From a bacterium (GTDB lineage Bacteria > UBP15 > UBA6099 > JAJRTR01), in contig JAJRTR010000139.1 in NCBI GenBank assembly GCA_024278215.1, positions 1-11,744 of the forward strand: a stretch of DNA of 11,744 nucleotides, in the 5' to 3' direction. The position numbers and the translations under genes were made by a program. The notes beneath the pieces are model-generated. The model did no database searches. It saw nothing but the letters and a program-made list of their open reading frames with translations, and was not told the origin of the DNA. Below are positions 2,449 through 10,742 of this stretch, in pieces (position 1 is the stretch's first letter; each line of letters begins with the position of its first letter).

Positions 2449-3321
2449 CTACTGGAACAGTTGCAATATGGACTGTGGTTGTGCGTTGGCCTGGGCCAGA
2501 ATCGCCGTGCCGCTCTGCTGGAGTATCTGGAGTCTTGTGAACTCGCTGATCTCCTTTGCCATGTCCGCGTCCATAATGCGGCTCTTGGCGGCAGTTATGT
2601 TGATCTCTGTGGTGTTAAGATCATCGATAACACTGTAGATGCGTCGTTCCTGAATACCAAGGTTTGCGCGAAGATCTGAAATCTGGTTGATGGCGCTTTG
2701 CACCTGGTCGATGGCGAACTGCGCGCTGGTTACAGCATTCAGGTTGGCGCGGTTGGAGCTGATCGCCTGGGCGGCGGTTCCCGCGCTGAGCAGCAGTGAG
2801 CTGACACCCAGGTTCGGTATGTTGATGGTCAGGCGAAGCAGAGCGCCGTTGTCCGCGCCGATCTGCAACACCAGCCCATTTGCGCCGCCGCCGGAGTACA
2901 ATCCACTGAACATAACCTTCGTGTTGAATGTCACTGCGTGGGATTTACGTTCGATCTCCGCCTTGAGGCTTGCCATCTCGTTGTCGAGCCTTCCAAGGTC
3001 TGCGCTTGTAAGTGTCGCCTCATTGCTTGCGCGGACCGCAAGGTCGCGCATTCGCAGGAGCATATCCTGTGTTTCCGCAAGTGAGCCGTCTACTGTGTGA
3101 ATCAGGTTTACACCGTCTTCAGCATTCTGAATTGCGACTCTCGTGCCGCCTATCTGGGCAGCCATGCTCTCTGCTATCGCCAATCCACTCGGATTGTCGG
3201 CGGCTTTGTTGATCTGTAGTCCGGAGGACAATCTCTCCAGTGAGGTGCGCAGCCCCAGGTTCGTCAGTCTCAGGTTGTTGAGGCCTATCATTGCGCTGAT
3301 ATTCGTGTTGATAATAGTCAA
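2449..3321 (-). CDS. fliC: Flagellin 1 (TTG start)
   Basis: Structural subunit of the flagellar filament, exported through the flagellar type III system. The 290-residue protein has the classical N-terminal D0/D1 coiled segment (INTNISAMIGLNNL at the start, LSSGLQINKAADNPSGLAIA at about 31-50). It has the matching C-terminal D1/D0 segment (SRIMDADMAKEISEFTRLQI, then AILAQANAQPQSILQL). The middle is almost absent: only a short loop around residues 140-165 separates the halves, so there is no D2/D3 domain. I place the start at TTG 3321 because it gives the conserved (M)TIINTN terminus and has GGAGGG 8 nt upstream. The open frame extends 51 codons further, but that part overlaps the ribosome site and leader hairpin and is unlike flagellin. 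This copy is 3 residues shorter than the others in the central loop (YSGGGANG). It appears monocistronic, ending in the hairpin near 2216-2245. Confidence 0.93.
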   Translation of the reverse strand: MTIINTNISAMIGLNNLRLTNLGLRTSLERLSSGLQINKAADNPSGLAIAESMAAQIGGTRVAIQNAEDGVNLIHTVDGSLAETQDMLLRMRDLAVRASNEATLTSADLGRLDNEMASLKAEIERKSHAVTFNTKVMFSGLYSGGGANGLVLQIGADNGALLRLTINIPNLGVSSLLLSAGTAAQAISSNRANLNAVTSAQFAIDQVQSAINQISDLRANLGIQERRIYSVIDDLNTTEINITAAKSRIMDADMAKEISEFTRLQILQQSGTAILAQANAQPQSILQLFQ

Positions 3322-3329
3322 AATAATGT

Positions 3330-3335
3330 CCCTCC
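3330..3335 (-). promoter_or_regulatory. Flagellin 1 ribosome binding site, also a GGA (CsrA-type) site
   Basis: GGAGGG lies 8 nt before the TTG start within the context ACATGGATGGAGGGAC. The strong site supports use of the weak TTG codon. The preceding ACATGGATG resembles the CsrA consensus core (ACANGGANGT), so the ribosome site and a CsrA-type site coincide. Confidence 0.7.
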
Positions 3336-3349
3336 ATCCATGTATGGTA

Positions 3350-3400
3350 TTAGCCATGCCGTATATCCATATACGGCTCACCTGGGGACATTCCAGGCAT
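3350..3400 (-). other. Possible 16-codon leader open frame before flagellin 1
   Basis: After AGGAGG (3403-3408) an ATG at 3400 opens a short frame reading MPGMSPGEPYMDIRHG and ending at TAA (3350-3352), just before the flagellin ribosome site. It spans the GGA-loop hairpin, so its translation would unfold the hairpin. The spacing to the first ATG is only 2 nt; the ATG at 3391 has 11 nt. Leader 3 has a comparable frame containing DIRYG. The AGGAGG may instead be a third CsrA-type site and not a ribosome site, so the frame could be accidental. Confidence 0.22.
3358..3377 (-). promoter_or_regulatory. Flagellin 1 leader hairpin with UGGA loop (CsrA-type site)
   Basis: Minus-strand RNA GCCGUAUAU-GG-AUAUACGGC has perfect 9-nt inverted arms around GG. 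In practice it is a stem closed by A-U with loop UGGA, 36 nt before the start codon. Equivalent hairpins stand at the same place in the three other flagellin leaders with different but compensating stem sequences. A loop-exposed GGA ahead of a GGA-containing ribosome site is the known arrangement of CsrA-repressed mRNAs. The CsrA assignment is inference. Confidence 0.65.
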
Positions 3401-3402
3401 TT

Positions 3403-3442
3403 CCTCCTATTTTCTGGGCGGATGTGTGCCAACACATCACCC
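3403..3442 (-). promoter_or_regulatory. Conserved upstream block of flagellin 1 with inverted repeat
   Basis: Minus strand shows a block shared with flagellin 2: GTGTTGGC(A/C)CACATC, CCC, (A/G)GAAAATAGGAGG. It contains GATGTGT-GCCA-ACACATC (3421-3438), a perfect 7-bp inverted repeat that extends into GGG/CCC flanks. It sits where a promoter or transcript start is expected, judging by the sigma-28 promoter of flagellin 4. It does not fit sigma-28, and lacks the GC of a sigma-54 -12 element at the right spacing. It may be an operator or a second leader hairpin. Confidence 0.5.
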
Positions 3443-3965
3443 AGCGCCGATCCGAAACCGGGCACCCGGATCACCGCATTATTACTATTTATTCTTAATC
3501 ACCACTCTAATATTCGGCACAGCAGGATACTTCAGCCATTCCCACTTTTCACGTGCCGCTGTTCGTGTGGCAATCGTCTGTTGTGCATATCCTCACCCAT
3601 ATACGATCGGGAATGAGGTGCTGAAAACTAACCGGTCCCATTACATCAAAATGTGTGTCCGCCGGGAGGATGCTTTCCTCTCCAGTGGTCGCGGCAGTGC
3701 TGCGAATCAACAGACAACACATCGCATGTCAACAGTACGTCCGGCCCTGCAAGCCCGCCGCCCGAAAACGCGGGATGCAAAAACGTGGCTGTATTACCTC
3801 GAAACTGCATAATTCCGACAACAGCATGGCTCTGAAATTCCTCCATAAAAACCTCAAAGAACACTGTTGCCGCAGTTCCGACGCATCCACCGGGCCTGGC
3901 ATCTTTTTAAGCGCGCACTCTTTAAATGCCGTCCCGTATAAACCGGACACCGGCTTGAAATACTG
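3443..3965. other. Non-coding gap between flagellins 1 and 2
   Basis: About 520 nt with no convincing gene. Short open frames on both strands (for example 66-72 codons on the minus strand at 3646-3864) lack family features or good start sites. The part next to flagellin 2 should contain that gene's terminator. The best I can find is an imperfect hairpin with GCC/GGC and GTCC/GGAC pairing (about 3928-3955) without a clean T-run, so the end of the flagellin 2 transcript is not resolved. Confidence 0.5.
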
Positions 3966-4847
3966 TTACTGCAACAATTGCAGTACGGACTGTGGTTGCG
4001 CGTTGGCCTGTGCGAGAATCGACGTACCGCTCTGCTGGAGTATCTGGAGCCTTGTGAACTCGCTGATCTCCTTTGCCATGTCCGCATCCATAATGCGGCT
4101 CTTGGCGGCGGAAATGTTGATATCCGTTGTGTTCAGGTCGTCGATTATGTGGTAAATACGTCGTTCCTGAATGCCAAGGTTCGCGCGAAGATCGGAAATC
4201 TGGTTGATGGCGCTTTGCACCTGGTCGATGGCGAACTGCGCGCTGGTTACAACATTCAGGTTGGCGCGGTTGGAGCTGATCGCCTGGGCGGCGGTTCCCG
4301 CACTGAGCAGCAGTGAGCTGACTCCGAGGTTCGGTATGTTGATGGTCAGGCGAAGAAGGGCGCCGTTGTCCGCGCCTATCTGCAACACCTGTCCATTTGC
4401 CGCCGTTCCCTGATTGCCCGAGAACAATCCGCTGAACACAACCTTCGTGTTGAATGTCACTGCGTGGGATTTGCGTTCGATCTCCGCCTTGAGGCTTGTC
4501 ATCTCGTTGTCGAGCCTTTGAAGGTCTGCGCTTGTGAGTGTCGCCTCATTGCTGGCACGGACCGCAAGGTCGCGCATTCGCAGGAGCATATCCTGTGTTT
4601 CCGCAAGTGAGCCATCTACTGTGTGAATCAGGTTTACACCGTCTTCAGCATTCTGGATCGCGACTCTCGTACCACCTATCTGGGCCTGCATTCCTTCCGC
4701 TATCGCAAGTCCGCTCGGGTTGTCCGCAGACTTGTTGATCTGCAGTCCCGAGGACAGTCTTTCAAGGGACGTTCTCAGTCCCAGGTTCGTCAGCCTCAAG
4801 TTGTTGAGGCCGATCATTGCACTGATGTTCGTGTTGATAACAGTCAA
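3966..4847 (-). CDS. fliC: Flagellin 2 (TTG start)
   Basis: Filament subunit of 293 residues with the same D0/D1-only architecture as flagellin 1. It has INTNISAMIGLNNL and LSSGLQINKSADNPSGLAIA at the N-terminus, a small central loop FSGNQGTAANGQVLQ, and SRIMDADMAKEISEF with ILAQANAQPQSVLQLLQ at the C-terminus. The start is taken at TTG 4847, giving (M)TVINTN, with GGAGG 8 nt upstream. The frame is open for 14 more codons to an ATG at 4889, but that ATG lies inside the conserved leader hairpin, so the longer form is less likely. DNA identity to flagellin 1 is very high in the region encoding the C-terminal half, including silent positions, which points to recent duplication or gene conversion. 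The gene has its own leader and appears monocistronic. Confidence 0.93.
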   Translation of the reverse strand: MTVINTNISAMIGLNNLRLTNLGLRTSLERLSSGLQINKSADNPSGLAIAEGMQAQIGGTRVAIQNAEDGVNLIHTVDGSLAETQDMLLRMRDLAVRASNEATLTSADLQRLDNEMTSLKAEIERKSHAVTFNTKVVFSGLFSGNQGTAANGQVLQIGADNGALLRLTINIPNLGVSSLLLSAGTAAQAISSNRANLNVVTSAQFAIDQVQSAINQISDLRANLGIQERRIYHIIDDLNTTDINISAAKSRIMDADMAKEISEFTRLQILQQSGTSILAQANAQPQSVLQLLQ

Positions 4848-4855
4848 ATCAAAAT

Positions 4856-4860
4856 CCTCC
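4856..4860 (-). promoter_or_regulatory. Flagellin 2 ribosome binding site, also a GGA site
   Basis: GGAGG stands 8 nt before TTG in the context AGGATGGAGGATTTTG. An ATG overlaps the site itself and cannot be served by it, which supports the TTG downstream as the start. Confidence 0.7.
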
Positions 4861-4877
4861 ATCCTGGTTTTAGCCGA

Positions 4878-4895
4878 CAGGATGTCCATATCCTG
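4878..4895 (-). promoter_or_regulatory. Flagellin 2 leader hairpin with UGGA loop (CsrA-type site)
   Basis: Minus-strand RNA CAGGAUAU-GG-ACAUCCUG pairs over 8 positions with a single A-C mismatch near the loop, exposing UGGA 30 nt before the start. The stem bases differ from those of the other three leaders but still pair, which argues for selection on structure. Confidence 0.6.
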
Positions 4896-4919
4896 CCCGT
4901 TCGGTGCTTCCGAACTGTG

Positions 4920-4958
4920 CCTCCTATTTCCGGGTAGATGTGGGCCAACACCCTACCC
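4920..4958 (-). promoter_or_regulatory. Conserved upstream block of flagellin 2 with inverted repeat
   Basis: Same block as upstream of flagellin 1: GTGTTGGCCCACATC, then CCCGGAAATAGGAGG. Arms GGGTAG (4932-4937) and CTACCC (4953-4958), plus GTG/CAC inside, pair around a GGCCAA loop on the plus strand. The outer arm sequence differs from that of flagellin 1 yet still pairs. No sigma-28 promoter is visible. AGGAGG (4920-4925) is followed by no start codon at usable distance here, so in this leader it is not a ribosome site for a leader peptide. Confidence 0.5.
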
Positions 4959-5585
4959 TGCCGCACCCTCGCAACTACTTTAACTTCTTGCGCTAATCTT
5001 TCGGTGTGGCTTGAATAGTAATTTTCGACCGCGCCCTATCGCAAAACACGGCGCAGACGCTACGGACATAACTGTCCCAATATGAAACCCGGCCTGTGCT
5101 GAAACAACAGGTGTTCACTGAAGCCACCCCGACATCGTCGAAGCGTTTTCGGTGCGCGTTTTCAAAAACGCTCACGTGCAGGCATAGCTCAAGTTCACCG
5201 TCGTTCAGGCTTCATTTCATAAGCGACCGGTATCATTCACAGGCTTCAGCCCACAAATATACCGTTATGCCCGGCGACCCATACGGGTGTTCTTGCAAGT
5301 TCCAGTAGGATCAGGATCCTGAAAAAACACTGTGTTCCTTAAACTACACACACCCGCAGGCCGCGCTATATTATCCGGCATGACATCCAGCCGGAAATAT
5401 TCAATGCCTTCAACCGTCCACATGGCGGTTTCCACACACCTGCCGGTATCACCGGCATTCCGTGTGCGTGGGAGTTTCGGAATACGATTTCCGAATTTCA
5501 GATGCCCCCGGAAATCTACAAATAACCGGCTCCGTGAACGGCTGATATCGCTATATTGTTGATACCCTTCTTAAAAAGGGCGGAT
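4959..5585. other. Non-coding gap between flagellins 2 and 3
   Basis: About 630 nt with no convincing gene; the 60-76 codon open frames have no recognisable features. It holds several hairpins: TGCCGGT-ATC-ACCGGCA (5441-5457) inside CACAC/GTGTG arms, TTCGGAA/TTCCGAA (5476-5495), and the 12-bp palindrome TCAGGATCCTGA (5311-5322). The cluster at 5430-5520 lies about 70-150 nt past the flagellin 3 stop and may serve as its transcript end, though none has a clear T-run. Confidence 0.5.
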
Positions 5586-6467
5586 TTACTGCATAAGCTG
5601 CAACACACTCTGCGGCTGCGCGTTTGCCTGGGCCAGGATCGCCGTGCCGCTCTGCTGGAGTATCTGGAGCCTCGTGAATTCGCTGATCTCCTTTGCCATG
5701 TCCGCGTCCATAATGCGACTCTTGGCGGCGGAAATATTGATGTCTGTTGTGTTCAGGTCATCTATGATGTGATAAATGCGTCGTTCCTGGATTCCAAGAT
5801 TGGCTCTCAGGTCCGATATCTGGTTGATGGCGCTCTGCACCTGGTCGATGGCGAACTGCGCGCTGGTTACAGCATTCAGGTTGGCGCGGTTGGAGCTGAT
5901 CGCCTGGGCGGCGGTTCCCGCGCTGAGCAGCAGTGAGCTGACACCCAGATTCGGTATGTTGATGGTCAGGCGAAGAAGGGCACCGTTGTCTGCGCCTATC
6001 TGCAACACCTGTCCATTTGCCGCCGTTCCCTGATTGCCGGAGTATAATCCGCTGAACAGTACCTTCGTGTTGAATGTTACCGCGTGGGATTTGCGTTCGA
6101 TCTCCGCCTTGAGGCTTGCCATCTCGTTGTCGAGCCTTTGAAGGTCCGCGCTTGTGAGGGTCGCCTCATTGCTGGCACGTACCGCGAGGTCCCGCATCCG
6201 CATAAGGATGTCCTGCGTTTCGGCCAGTGAGCCGTCGGCCGTATGAATCAGGTTTACTCCATCTTCCGCATTCTGAACCGCAGTTCTTATCCCACCCAAC
6301 TGGGCCTGCATTCCTTCTGCTATCGCAAGTCCACTGGGGTCATCCGCCGCTTTGTTGATACGCAGCCCGGACGAGAGCCTCTCGAGCGATGTTTTCAGCC
6401 CGACATTCGTCAGTCTCAGGTTGTTAAGACCTATCATTGCGCTAATGTTTGTGTTAATAATTGTCAT
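5586..6467 (-). CDS. fliC: Flagellin 3 (ATG start, apparent chimera)
   Basis: Filament subunit, 293 residues, D0/D1-only. It starts at ATG 6467 (MTIINTNISAMIGLNNL), with GGAG 10 nt upstream, a weaker and more distant ribosome site than in the other copies. Up to about residue 95 it carries the flagellin 4 variants: GLKTS, LRINKAADDPSG, GGIRTA, LIHTADG and QDILMRM. From about residue 110 on it carries the flagellin 2 variants: SGNQGTAANGQVLQIGADNG, ALLRLTINIPN, SLLLSAG, YHIIDDLNTTDINIS and DADMAKEISE. Silent sites follow the same switch. The gene therefore looks like the product of recombination between paralogues. It has its own leader with the UGGA hairpin. Confidence 0.94.
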   Translation of the reverse strand: MTIINTNISAMIGLNNLRLTNVGLKTSLERLSSGLRINKAADDPSGLAIAEGMQAQLGGIRTAVQNAEDGVNLIHTADGSLAETQDILMRMRDLAVRASNEATLTSADLQRLDNEMASLKAEIERKSHAVTFNTKVLFSGLYSGNQGTAANGQVLQIGADNGALLRLTINIPNLGVSSLLLSAGTAAQAISSNRANLNAVTSAQFAIDQVQSAINQISDLRANLGIQERRIYHIIDDLNTTDINISAAKSRIMDADMAKEISEFTRLQILQQSGTAILAQANAQPQSVLQLMQ

Positions 6468-6477
6468 TTTTCAATTT

Positions 6478-6481
6478 CTCC
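6478..6481 (-). promoter_or_regulatory. Flagellin 3 ribosome binding site (weak)
   Basis: GGAG in AAGGATGGAGAAATTG stands 10 nt before the ATG. Compared with GGAGG at 6-8 nt in the other three copies, this site should be weaker, partly balanced by the ATG start codon. Confidence 0.55.
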
Positions 6482-6485
6482 ATCC

Positions 6486-6527
6486 TTAGTTTTTGCCGTA
6501 CCGAATATCCGTATCCGGTGTATACAC
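6486..6527 (-). other. Possible 13-codon leader open frame before flagellin 3
   Basis: Behind AGGAGG (6531-6536), a GTG at 6527 opens a frame reading MYTPDTDIRYGKN (GTG read as Met) that ends at TAA 6486-6488, directly ahead of the flagellin ribosome site. It resembles the leader frame of flagellin 1 in place, length and the DIR-x-G ending. The spacing of 3 nt is short for initiation, and the frame crosses the hairpin, whose pairing alone could explain the similarity. Confidence 0.22.
6501..6518 (-). promoter_or_regulatory. Flagellin 3 leader hairpin with GGA loop (CsrA-type site)
   Basis: Minus-strand RNA CCGGAUAC-GG-AUAUUCGG pairs over 7 positions including one G-U, with a C-A mismatch next to the loop. 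One further A-U pair extends it at the base. GGA is in the loop, 33 nt before the start codon, matching the other three flagellin leaders. Confidence 0.6.
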
Positions 6528-6530
6528 TTG

Positions 6531-6563
6531 CCTCCTGACGTTAACAGGTATTCCAAAACACCT
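6531..6563 (-). promoter_or_regulatory. Upstream block of flagellin 3 with inverted repeat
   Basis: AGGTATT-CCAA-AACACCT on the plus strand (6546-6563) pairs over 7 positions with one wobble on the minus-strand RNA, exposing UUGG. It sits upstream of AGGAGG, as the inverted repeats of flagellins 1 and 2 do, though the primary sequence is largely different. I find no sigma-28 or sigma-54 promoter here. Confidence 0.35.
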
Positions 6564-6974
6564 CCCCTAAGCGATGATAACTATGCACGCTTTTGCAATT
6601 CAGCAATCTCAAGTTGCTATTTCACCTGCATAGCGCATATATACTTTTAACTCAGGCACTTCGGTGTATACCGATAACACCTGAACTAAACCCTTCTACA
6701 TATACTTCATATAGGCTTCTGTCTATTCCCGAAACATGCGATTATGCAAATAATCTACGATATAACCGCTCATATTTGAGAACAATGAAATAAAGGCTGT
6801 AAAACCCTATGTGCGTTTAATCAATATACCCTTAAACATCACTTCCTGTTCTTTATCTTTATTCAAAATTTATCTTTATTCCCGACACCAATACCCTGTC
6901 GTATTTCATGTAGGGTTATATATAGTGAAAAACAACTTCACTCCACCTATAAAATCACCACGCGACATGTACGT

Positions 6975-7010
6975 AATGACGTGCCATTCACGCGAAGGCG
7001 GAAATCCAGT
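6975..7010 (+). repeat. Degenerate short dispersed repeat (CATTCnCGCGAAGGCGGnAATCCAG type)
   Basis: CCATTCACGCGAAGGCGG followed by AAATCCAG matches, with a few changes, the very common bacterial palindromic repeat TCATTCCCGCGAAGGCGGGAATCCAG. In one plus frame it reads SREGGNPV, a well-known spurious peptide of that repeat. The two changes weaken the stem. Confidence 0.6.
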
Positions 7011-7107
7011 ATCTTTTACCACCAGAATAAAGGGTGGTGTTTTCAAATATCAGGCCCCGGCACAAAAGCCGGGACACTCTTTTCGATCGACATATATCGC
7101 TTCCAAT

Positions 7108-7311
7108 CCGGATCTCTCACAAAGAAATCCGGAAAATCACAATAACGCCTATTCTACTGCGTCGCGGCGGCGATTCGGGATCGGTCACAAACCTGCATTT
7201 TGCGCAAGAGGCCGGCTGGCCGGCTGCTCCCTCACCACTCGCTTGCCGCGCCTTGTATAACCCCAGGCATTCTCCCGGTTTTAGCCCGCATTAGCGAAAT
7301 ATGCGGGCTAA
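7108..7311 (-). repeat. Dispersed intergenic repeat, copy B (about 204 bp, inverted)
   Basis: Inverted copy of 1995-2170. Its outer end is a perfect 11-bp hairpin TTAGCCCGCAT-TAGCGAAAT-ATGCGGGCTAA (7281-7311). The other end is CCGGATCTCT-CACAA-AGAAATCCGG (7108-7132). Relative to copy A it has about 24 extra bases containing GCCGGCC twice. The ends are imperfect inverted repeats of each other, as in a miniature transposable element. No protein is encoded. Confidence 0.75.
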
Positions 7312-7440
7312 CCGTCCACTGTAAAACAACAGTGAATAATGGATAGGAAGAGAAATTTTCGATTGTCCTGACCCCCAGATAACGGTTCCTGTTGCTTCAT
7401 ATTCTTTTTGTCCCTGTACAGCAACTTGCCCAAACACATA

Positions 7441-7478
7441 ACGGGAGAAGCACGAACAAGTGTCGCAACTCCTCCCGT
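7441..7478. other. Long-loop hairpin, function unknown
   Basis: ACGGGAG (7441-7447) and CTCCCGT (7472-7478) pair perfectly over 7 bp around a 24-nt loop that contains a smaller CAC/GTG stem. It lies in the empty gap downstream of flagellin 4. It could be part of a small RNA, but I see no promoter or terminator that frames it. Confidence 0.25.
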
Positions 7479-7610
7479 ATCAGGTCTTTCTGTAATCCCT
7501 CATGGCCGCCGATGCCAGGGATGTTTTTTATATGCCTATGGGCTCATTATTTCCACCATAACTTATCTATATTGAGTTTATTATCTCTTACAGTCTGTTT
7601 TTAAGGCGCA

Positions 7611-7640
7611 AAATCCACCCGGCCTGCTAAGGCCGGATGG
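7611..7640 (-). terminator. Intrinsic terminator of flagellin 4
   Basis: On the minus strand CCATCCGGCCT, loop TAGC, AGGCCGGGTGG forms an 11-bp stem (one G-U), followed by ATTTTG. It lies about 125 nt past the flagellin 4 stop and is the best terminator for that transcript. Confidence 0.75.
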
Positions 7641-7763
7641 GTTGGAATTCTGATTAGTAGTAGGTTTACCATTTATGCGCTCTATTCTCAGTGTTTCGCC
7701 GCGGTGACAGGTATGAAAAACCGTAAGCGGCGGAATTTGTGACGATTATTATCCGTTAAGGAA

Positions 7764-8645
7764 CTACTGGAGCAACTGCAACACACTCTGCGGCTGTGCG
7801 TTGGCCTGTGCGAGAATCGCCGTGCCGCTCTGCTGAAGTATCTGGAGCCTTGTGAACTCGCTGATCTCGACCGACATGTCCGCGTCGTAGATGCGGCTCT
7901 TTGCGGCGGAGATGTTGATGTCCTCTGCGGCCAGGTCGTCGATGATGTGATACAGGCGTCTTTCCTGAATACCGAGGTTGGCCCTCAGGTCCGATATCTG
8001 GTTGATCGCGCTCTGCACCTGGTCGATTGCGAACTGCGCGCTGGTTACAACATTCAGGTTGGCACGGTTGGAGCTGATCGCCTGGGCGGCGGTTCCCGCG
8101 CTGAGACCCAGGGCACTGACACCCAGATTCGGTATGTTGATGGTCAGCCTGAAGTTGACGCCGTTGTCCGGACCGATCTGCAGGAGCTGGCCGTTGGCGG
8201 GGCTCCCATGGTCGCCGGAGAAAATTCCGCTGAACAGTACCTTCGTGTTGAATGTTACCGCGTGGGATTTTCTTTCGATTTCCGCCTTGAGGCTTGTCAT
8301 CTCGTTGTCGAGCCTCTGAAGGTCTGCGCTTGTGAGAGTCGCCTCATTGCTGGCGCGGACCGCGAGGTCCCGCATCCTCATAAGGATGTCCTGCGTTTCG
8401 GCCAGTGAGCCGTCGGCAGTGTGGATCAGGTTGATTCCGTCTTCAGCATTTTGTGTCGCTGTGCGGATTCCGCCTATCTGCGCTTCCATCCCCTTGGCGA
8501 TGGCAAGACCACTCGGATCGTCCGCGGCTTTGTTGATACGCAGCCCGGATGAGAGTCTTTCAAGTGATGTTTTCAGTCCGAGATTCGTCAGCCTCAGATT
8601 GTTGAGACCGATCATTGAAGAAATGTTTGTGTTGATTACGCTCAT
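7764..8645 (-). CDS. fliC: Flagellin 4 (ATG start, sigma-28 promoter)
   Basis: Filament subunit of 293 residues, the most divergent of the four. The ATG at 8645 gives MSVINTNISSMIGLNNL, with GGAGG 6 nt upstream, the best start context in the set. The frame is open for 21 further codons, but those cross the leader hairpin. It has LSSGLRINKAADDPSGLAIA near the N-terminus. The central loop is distinctive (SGDHGSPANGQLLQIGPDNG, then VNFRLTINIPN). The C-terminus has SRIYDADMSVEISEF in place of SRIMDADMAKEISEF, and ends QPQSVLQLLQ. It is the only copy with a clear sigma-28 promoter (8725-8751) and a clear intrinsic terminator (7611-7640). It may be the main or late-expressed flagellin; that role is inference. 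Confidence 0.95.
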   Translation of the reverse strand: MSVINTNISSMIGLNNLRLTNLGLKTSLERLSSGLRINKAADDPSGLAIAKGMEAQIGGIRTATQNAEDGINLIHTADGSLAETQDILMRMRDLAVRASNEATLTSADLQRLDNEMTSLKAEIERKSHAVTFNTKVLFSGIFSGDHGSPANGQLLQIGPDNGVNFRLTINIPNLGVSALGLSAGTAAQAISSNRANLNVVTSAQFAIDQVQSAINQISDLRANLGIQERRLYHIIDDLAAEDINISAAKSRIYDADMSVEISEFTRLQILQQSGTAILAQANAQPQSVLQLLQ

Positions 8646-8651
8646 AGTAAT

Positions 8652-8656
8652 CCTCC
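8652..8656 (-). promoter_or_regulatory. Flagellin 4 ribosome binding site
   Basis: GGAGG 6 nt before ATG 8645, the strongest start region of the four flagellins. It also provides a GGA site 15 nt after the leader hairpin. Confidence 0.75.
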
Positions 8657-8671
8657 CTGATTGTGGTTTGT

Positions 8672-8687
8672 CGGACATCCATGTCCG
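8672..8687 (-). promoter_or_regulatory. Flagellin 4 leader hairpin with UGGA loop (near-consensus CsrA site)
   Basis: Minus-strand RNA CGGACAU-GG-AUGUCCG has perfect 7-nt arms. The core ACAUGGAUGU matches the in-vitro CsrA consensus RUACARGGAUGU at nearly every position, and GGA is presented in the loop as CsrA prefers. It lies 26 nt before the start codon. Confidence 0.72.
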
Positions 8688-8724: not shown

Positions 8725-8751
8725 ATATCGTCACGTTCGAGAAAGACTTTA
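8725..8751 (-). promoter_or_regulatory. Sigma-28 (FliA-type) promoter of flagellin 4
   Basis: Minus strand: TAAAGTCT (8744-8751), an 11-nt spacer, GACGATAT (8725-8732). The FliA consensus is TAAAGTTT-N11-GCCGATAA, so 7 of 8 and 6 of 8 positions match at exact spacing. Transcription would start near 8718 in AGAAAATAG, giving a leader of about 73 nt that contains the UGGA hairpin. Confidence 0.8.
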
Positions 8752-10654: not shown

Positions 10655-10728
10655 GCCGCCCGCCGCCGCAACGGGCGTAGAATAGGCGTTCTCCCGATTT
10701 TCCGGGTTTCTCTGTGAGAAATCCGGGA
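10655..10728 (+). repeat. Dispersed intergenic repeat, partial copy C
   Basis: The last third of the repeat seen at 1995-2170 and 7108-7311. It has GCCGCCGCAACG, GTAGAATAGGCGTT, GATTTTCCGG and the terminal hairpin CCGGGTTTCT-CTGTG-AGAAATCCGG (10702-10726, one wobble). It begins immediately after the glycosyltransferase stop codon. The rest of the element is missing. Confidence 0.65.
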
Positions 10729-10742
10729 TAAAAATGGACACA

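Follow-up and report, generated by a model that had tools for sequence, protein, structure and literature searches.

How might several divergent flagellin genes in one genome be held under common control? The question is raised by a window of 11,744 nucleotides (nt), by which we mean the whole stretch of DNA that was analysed, which makes up one contig (C114) of a 4.55-Mb metagenome-assembled genome. The window encodes four flagellins, all on the minus strand, and each leader of the corresponding messenger RNAs (mRNAs) carries a hairpin that presents GGA in its loop. We consider it highly probable (about 0.87) that these leaders are two-part sites for the RNA-binding protein CsrA, which would be bridged by one CsrA dimer and would repress flagellin translation until CsrA is removed by the protein FliW.

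Hairpins in the leaders of the four flagellin genes

The hairpin is contained in the minimum-energy fold of all four leaders and each site is also matched by a covariance model. On the minus strand, copy 1 has gccgtat-AUGGAU-atacggc at 3358-3377 with a stem of 7 base pairs (bp; covariance-model match 3357-3378), copy 2 has ggcaggat-AUGGAC-atcctgtc at 4876-4897 (8 bp), copy 3 has accggat-ACGGAU-attcggt at 6500-6519 (7 bp) and copy 4 has cggac-AUGGAU-gtccg at 8672-8687 (5 bp). The distances from the hairpin end to the start codon are 36, 28, 32 and 26 nt for copies 1 to 4, respectively. In dinucleotide shuffles of each leader, the chance of an equal or longer stem around any NNGGAN loop was 0.0012, 0/5000 (<0.0002), 0.0014 and 0.0056 in the same order.

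An earlier note on this DNA, made from the letters alone, had described four minus-strand leaders with a GGA-loop hairpin 26-36 nt before the start, and location and folding bear this out. Its loop, (A/C)(U/C)GGAU, was right as to the GGA tip and needs correction elsewhere; the first base is always A and the last is C in copy 2, giving a hexaloop of A(U/C)GGA(U/C) in all four leaders. Likewise, its stem length of 7-9 bp holds for copies 1-3 and fails for copy 4. The fourth copy is, as the note had it, nearest to the CsrA consensus RUACARGGAUGU, with agreement at 10 of 12 positions.

The Pfam domains Flagellin_N and Flagellin_C occur in all four products, which identifies copy 1 (2449..3321, minus strand) and, together with sequence comparison among the copies, copy 2 (3966..4847), copy 3 (5586..6467) and copy 4 (7764..8645), all on the same strand. 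Copy 3 shares 89-93% identity with the other three, and the start codon is TTG in copies 1 and 2 and ATG in copies 3 and 4. Elsewhere in the window, the intergenic text at 7110-7260, 10668-10740 and 2040-2175 is alike (GAAATCCGG..., GGCGTTATTGTGATTTTCCGG-like, gggagcatactgcaggt / ctgctccctcaccactcgcttgccgcgcc) and occurs in both orientations; this has the look of an intergenic repeat dispersed in the genome.

Three controls gave the background: shuffles, replacement of the loop triplet, and a covariance-model search of whole genomes. The comparison set comprised six related genomes of the same order, giving seven with that of the window (no other genome available for comparison shares a rank below domain). 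The covariance model was built partly from the window's own sites and was run on the seven genomes with 150 pre-selected candidates scored in each, and its E-values are rough. The four sites of the window are hits 1-4 in their own genome, and hit 5 lies inside a coding frame. Strong hits in the other six genomes are flagellin leaders, save for a few intergenic inverted repeats (G003:C8, G005:C98, G005:C11); the strongest hits away from flagellins lie mostly within coding frames, the remainder being intergenic inverted repeats such as CCGGGUACGGAGACCCGG in G005. Within the reach of this narrow model and its 150 candidates per genome, no cluster of hits as expected for a sponge small RNA (sRNA) of the CsrB/RsmZ type was found in the seven genomes.

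Among RNA families, Rfam holds flg-Rhizobiales, which is also concerned with leaders of flagellar genes. Neither this nor any of the other 4226 Rfam families reaches its gathering score in the window, and only chance-level matches occur at the related loci. A literature search, which left most subscription papers uncovered, returned no paper that treats the leader hairpin as an RNA family or follows it from phylum to phylum.

Conservation of the loop and covariation of the stem

The related genomes retain both the hairpin and its GGA loop. When loops were selected by position only (ANGGA whose first G lies at a distance of 24-64 nt before the start), a pairing stem flanked the selected loop in 28 of the 29 'major' flagellin leaders of the order. 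A contiguous GGA-hexaloop stem of at least 5 bp is present in 14 of 18 nonredundant leaders against 0.19 expected (shuffled mean), and none of the other 63 triplets, put in place of GGA in the same scan, appeared in more than 1 of the 18. The stems include GGGUC/GACCC, CGAUC/GAUCG, CCGAAU/GUUCGG, CCGGGU/ACCCGG and GGGC/GCCC. The earlier remark that the stems differ in every copy yet stay complementary extends to the whole order: across 20 distinct hairpins, 90% of cells are paired, five of the six stem pairs have changed on both sides, and the covariation score is 0.64 versus 0.22 for shuffled and at most 0.16 for slid alignments, kinship among the sequences inflating the shuffle control and not the slid one. 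The loop and its pairing are the only leader feature common to the divergent flagellin mRNAs.

This pattern bears on whether the inverted repeats act at the DNA level, as operators bound by a regulator of flagellin transcription. Copies 1 and 4 do look near-perfectly palindromic as DNA, but a DNA-binding protein would need a common sequence, whereas here the stem differs in every copy with complementarity kept, and what stays constant is the GGA loop, which is not palindromic and lies downstream of the likely promoter. We regard the operator explanation as extremely improbable, the least favoured of all those weighed here.

The sole exception to the position-only rule, leader L075 (G002:C200, flagellin at 759), has lost the upstream GGA and has GGGC-AUGAC-GCCC at that place. 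In the same leader an 8-bp stem closes an ACGGAG hexaloop exactly over the Shine-Dalgarno sequence; it is possibly a one-site version. Minor flagellins of other subfamilies (L065, L053, L095, L108) have AAGGAU hexaloop hairpins with independent stem sequences, for example CUCCGGC-AAGGAU-GCCGGAG and GCGGGAAAA-AAGGAU-UUUUCCCGU.

Beyond the order, 212 genomes were searched for flagellin, FliW and CsrA, and leaders were taken from the flagellated ones. Of the genomes that have csrA together with fliW (49), 25 yielded one or more leaders in which a stem of at least 5 bp closes a GGA hexaloop. Over all 49, such hairpins number 31 in 82 leaders, against 1.4 in shuffles (maximum 6), and at a stem length of at least 6 bp GGA accounts for 29 and any other triplet for at most 2 of the 82 leaders. 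None was found in 11 flagellated genomes without fliW (0 of 16 leaders; 10 of the 11 also lack csrA), an association with fliW that is significant on genomes by Fisher's test (p = 0.001, uncorrected for phylogeny). The first loop base is A in 31 of 31 hairpins, though the scan did not demand it, and most of them are located 32-50 nt before the start. A set chosen by position only (ANGGA at -30 to -50; 49 sequences) paired in 73% of six-pair cells, compared with 46% when shuffled and 31-42% when slid, with covariation of 0.62 (shuffled, 0.20). In 38 of these 49 a C-G pair closes the loop, giving CANGGANG, the high-affinity CsrA/RsmE hexaloop motif (PMC4894983).

The hairpins are stable and sit in the leaders of very highly expressed genes, and one terminator-like pattern match overlaps copy 4, on the other strand, however. 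The hairpins might accordingly be read as general elements of mRNA 5'-end stability or structure, or as terminators, in which the GGA loop is incidental. It is the loop bases that are conserved and the stem that is free, other loop triplets are as rare as given above in the order and outside it, and the presence of the hairpin tracks fliW; we hold this explanation to be improbable.

The GGA-loop leader hairpin is thus apparently widespread among bacteria with CsrA and FliW. Going further, we lean towards the view that an A-N-GGA-N hexaloop hairpin approximately 32-50 nt upstream of the start is an ancient, bacteria-wide element of flagellin mRNAs, travelling with fliW and csrA, repeated across the members of arrays and without an Rfam match.

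CsrA, FliW and the site at the ribosome

The earlier note had made its proposal depend on the presence of csrA and had advised a search for fliW. All seven genomes of the order have both, csrA in single copy and fliW adjoining it, the order in the window's own genome being flgK-flgL-fliW-csrA-flagellin (flgK and flgL named by sequence and position). The CsrA protein has 81 amino acids and a C-terminal extension, is 58% identical to the Bacillus sequence compared, and keeps the RNA-contacting residues L4 and R44, which are invariant in the alignment. Its best PDB matches are 1t3o and the CsrA-FliW complex 5dmb, which is also matched by FliW. The CsrA C-terminus has a role in FliW binding (PMC7652899), and at the protein level FliW and CsrA are known as a module kept in deep-branching bacteria (PMC6529632).

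A hairpin by itself does not tell what binds it, and it could be recognised by an sRNA or by some protein different from CsrA. This we judge unlikely: the loop and closing pair outside the order form the known CsrA/RsmE motif, and csrA is accompanied by fliW in every genome of the order.

Two further observations concern these genes. The window's genome, alone among those of the order, has a second fliW paralogue (L003, G000:C139:363-848) with no csrA or flagellin nearby. The flagellin directly 3' of fliW-csrA has a different leader in seven of seven genomes (L051:10725-10857 (G000:C51), L070, L098, L062, L087, L093, L107), made up of GGAGGUG..., a variable-stem hairpin whose loop is AGGA(U/A/C), then a sequence-invariant GUUUCUGGUGGCUCCAG hairpin and GGAGGAGAUAAACCAUG. 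Its UUUCUGGUGGCUCCAG occurs exactly once per genome, no Rfam match was found in the three leaders scanned (L051, L070, L098), and CsrA does not account for its invariant part.

In the array, the presumed second CsrA site is the Shine-Dalgarno sequence (all minus strand): GGAGG at 3331-3335 in copy 1, GGAGG at 4856-4860 in copy 2, GGAG at 6478-6481 in copy 3 and GGAGG at 8652-8656 in copy 4, the last within a 4-bp AGGGAG hexaloop. The GGAs of this region lie 26-34, 20-27, 22-26 and 21-24 nt past the hairpin GGA, respectively. Across every hairpin-bearing leader of the order, the gap from the hairpin GGA to the first of them is 17-34 nt; a CsrA dimer bridges 10-63 nt with an optimum above 18 nt (PMC7652899), and all these leaders fall within that bridging range.

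The leaders also raise the matter of coding. The loop AUG of copy 2 is in frame with the flagellin with no stop between, and several long leaders have an upstream AGGAGG and a short open reading frame (ORF) across the hairpin, as would be expected if the AUGGA loop were the true start, or lay within an N-terminal extension or a leader peptide. When the loop AUG was considered as coding, all three frames were met among different leaders and many had ACGGA instead, and this candidate was rejected. Short leaders have the hairpin without an ORF over it, and the coding explanation appears to us very improbable, more so than an incidental loop or another ligand.

A second perfect AGGAGG does occur 69-96 nt before the start in long-leader flagellins (window 6531-6536, 3403-3408 and 4920-4925, minus strand; also L060, L069, L085, L103). 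In several of these, not all, a short ORF then runs through the GGA hairpin (MSPGEPYMDIRHG, VYTPDTDIRYGKN, MHPLQPNMEVRFFG..., MRPRQPDMDDR), and its translation would open that hairpin.

Copy 4 has a sigma-28-like promoter, TAAA-N15-GACGATAT, at 8725-8751 (minus strand, consensus match only), from which the leader would be approximately 70 nt long and would include the hairpin. Many orthologues have sigma-28 promoters too, some better than that of copy 4, e.g. TAAA-N15-GCCGATAA in L084.

In the mechanism we propose, the upstream hairpin would present A-N-GGA-N in its hexaloop as a high-affinity CsrA site and the Shine-Dalgarno GGA 17-34 nt downstream would be the second. A single dimer would bridge the two and hide the ribosome site, and the same single csrA product would hold off all four flagellin mRNAs. 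FliW, encoded beside csrA, would take CsrA away and free translation; cytoplasmic flagellin would titrate FliW, and translation would therefore follow flagellin export. Affinity may be tuned from one flagellin to another by the differing stems; the TTG starts of copies 1 and 2 may have a part in this as well.

Several points weigh against this proposal. CsrA binding and flagellin repression in this lineage, and with them the bridging and the FliW-flagellin feedback, are what we infer from comparison of genomes. The second site is weak evidence by itself because the Shine-Dalgarno sequence of nearly all genes holds a GGA. In approximately half of the csrA- and fliW-bearing genomes outside the order, none of the sampled leaders has a hairpin reaching 5 bp, and the comparison set without fliW is limited to 11 genomes that also differ in other respects. 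Lastly, a search of the leaders gave no recognisable sigma-28 promoter for copies 1-3, only copy 4 having one.

Known flagellin leaders and the meaning of the array

The general idea is not new, as the hag, flaA and fliC leaders are of the same kind and experiments exist for hag and flaA. The GGA on display in these hairpins is also what CsrA recognises in Bacillus and Campylobacter. CsrA-FliW control is experimentally proven for the Campylobacter jejuni flaA leader, with a site spacing of 21 nt and compensatory changes within Campylobacter (PMC4894983). Like the leaders described here, flaA has an ANGGA hexaloop hairpin in a short leader with a second ANGGA at the ribosome site, and it shares compensatory changes between species, FliW antagonism and no need of a CsrB-type sRNA (PMC4894983). 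Unlike here, its SL2 at the ribosome site is itself a hexaloop hairpin, which only some of our leaders have (copy 4, 4 bp; L075, 8 bp), and in this order each genome has the element on four or more flagellin paralogues, with stems unrelated in sequence.

The hag leader of Bacillus subtilis similarly has one upstream site and one over the Shine-Dalgarno sequence (BS1 at A51-A55 and BS2 at C75-G82; PMC8523840), together with FliW as antagonist and a CsrA with a C-terminal extension, but only one flagellin gene is under control. The Clostridioides difficile fliC leader, with predicted BS1 TGACAAGGATGT and BS2 CTAAGGAGGG (PMC8523840), has the two-site layout and the same proteins; in contrast to the array, it belongs to a single flagellin and its sites are predicted only. 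New here are the lineage, the recurrence of the hairpin along an array of divergent flagellins, and the evidence that it tracks FliW widely and has no Rfam match.

How CsrA and FliW control flagellin is so far understood from a few bacteria in culture, in each case for a single flagellin. In the present order, each genome sets the product of one csrA against four or more divergent flagellin mRNAs, and as the leaders of these have nothing in common but the loop and its pairing, the selection acting on the site can be seen directly; the stems and loops also form a natural series on which binding could be studied. The broader survey of genomes makes the statement that FliW is widespread testable at the RNA level, the leaders of fliW genomes being expected with the hairpin and those of fliW-less flagellated genomes without it. 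If the element is indeed as ancient as suggested, FliW-type control could be read off a genome from a leader alone, and control of flagellin by CsrA and FliW at the RNA level would be ancestral and very common in fliW-bearing bacteria.

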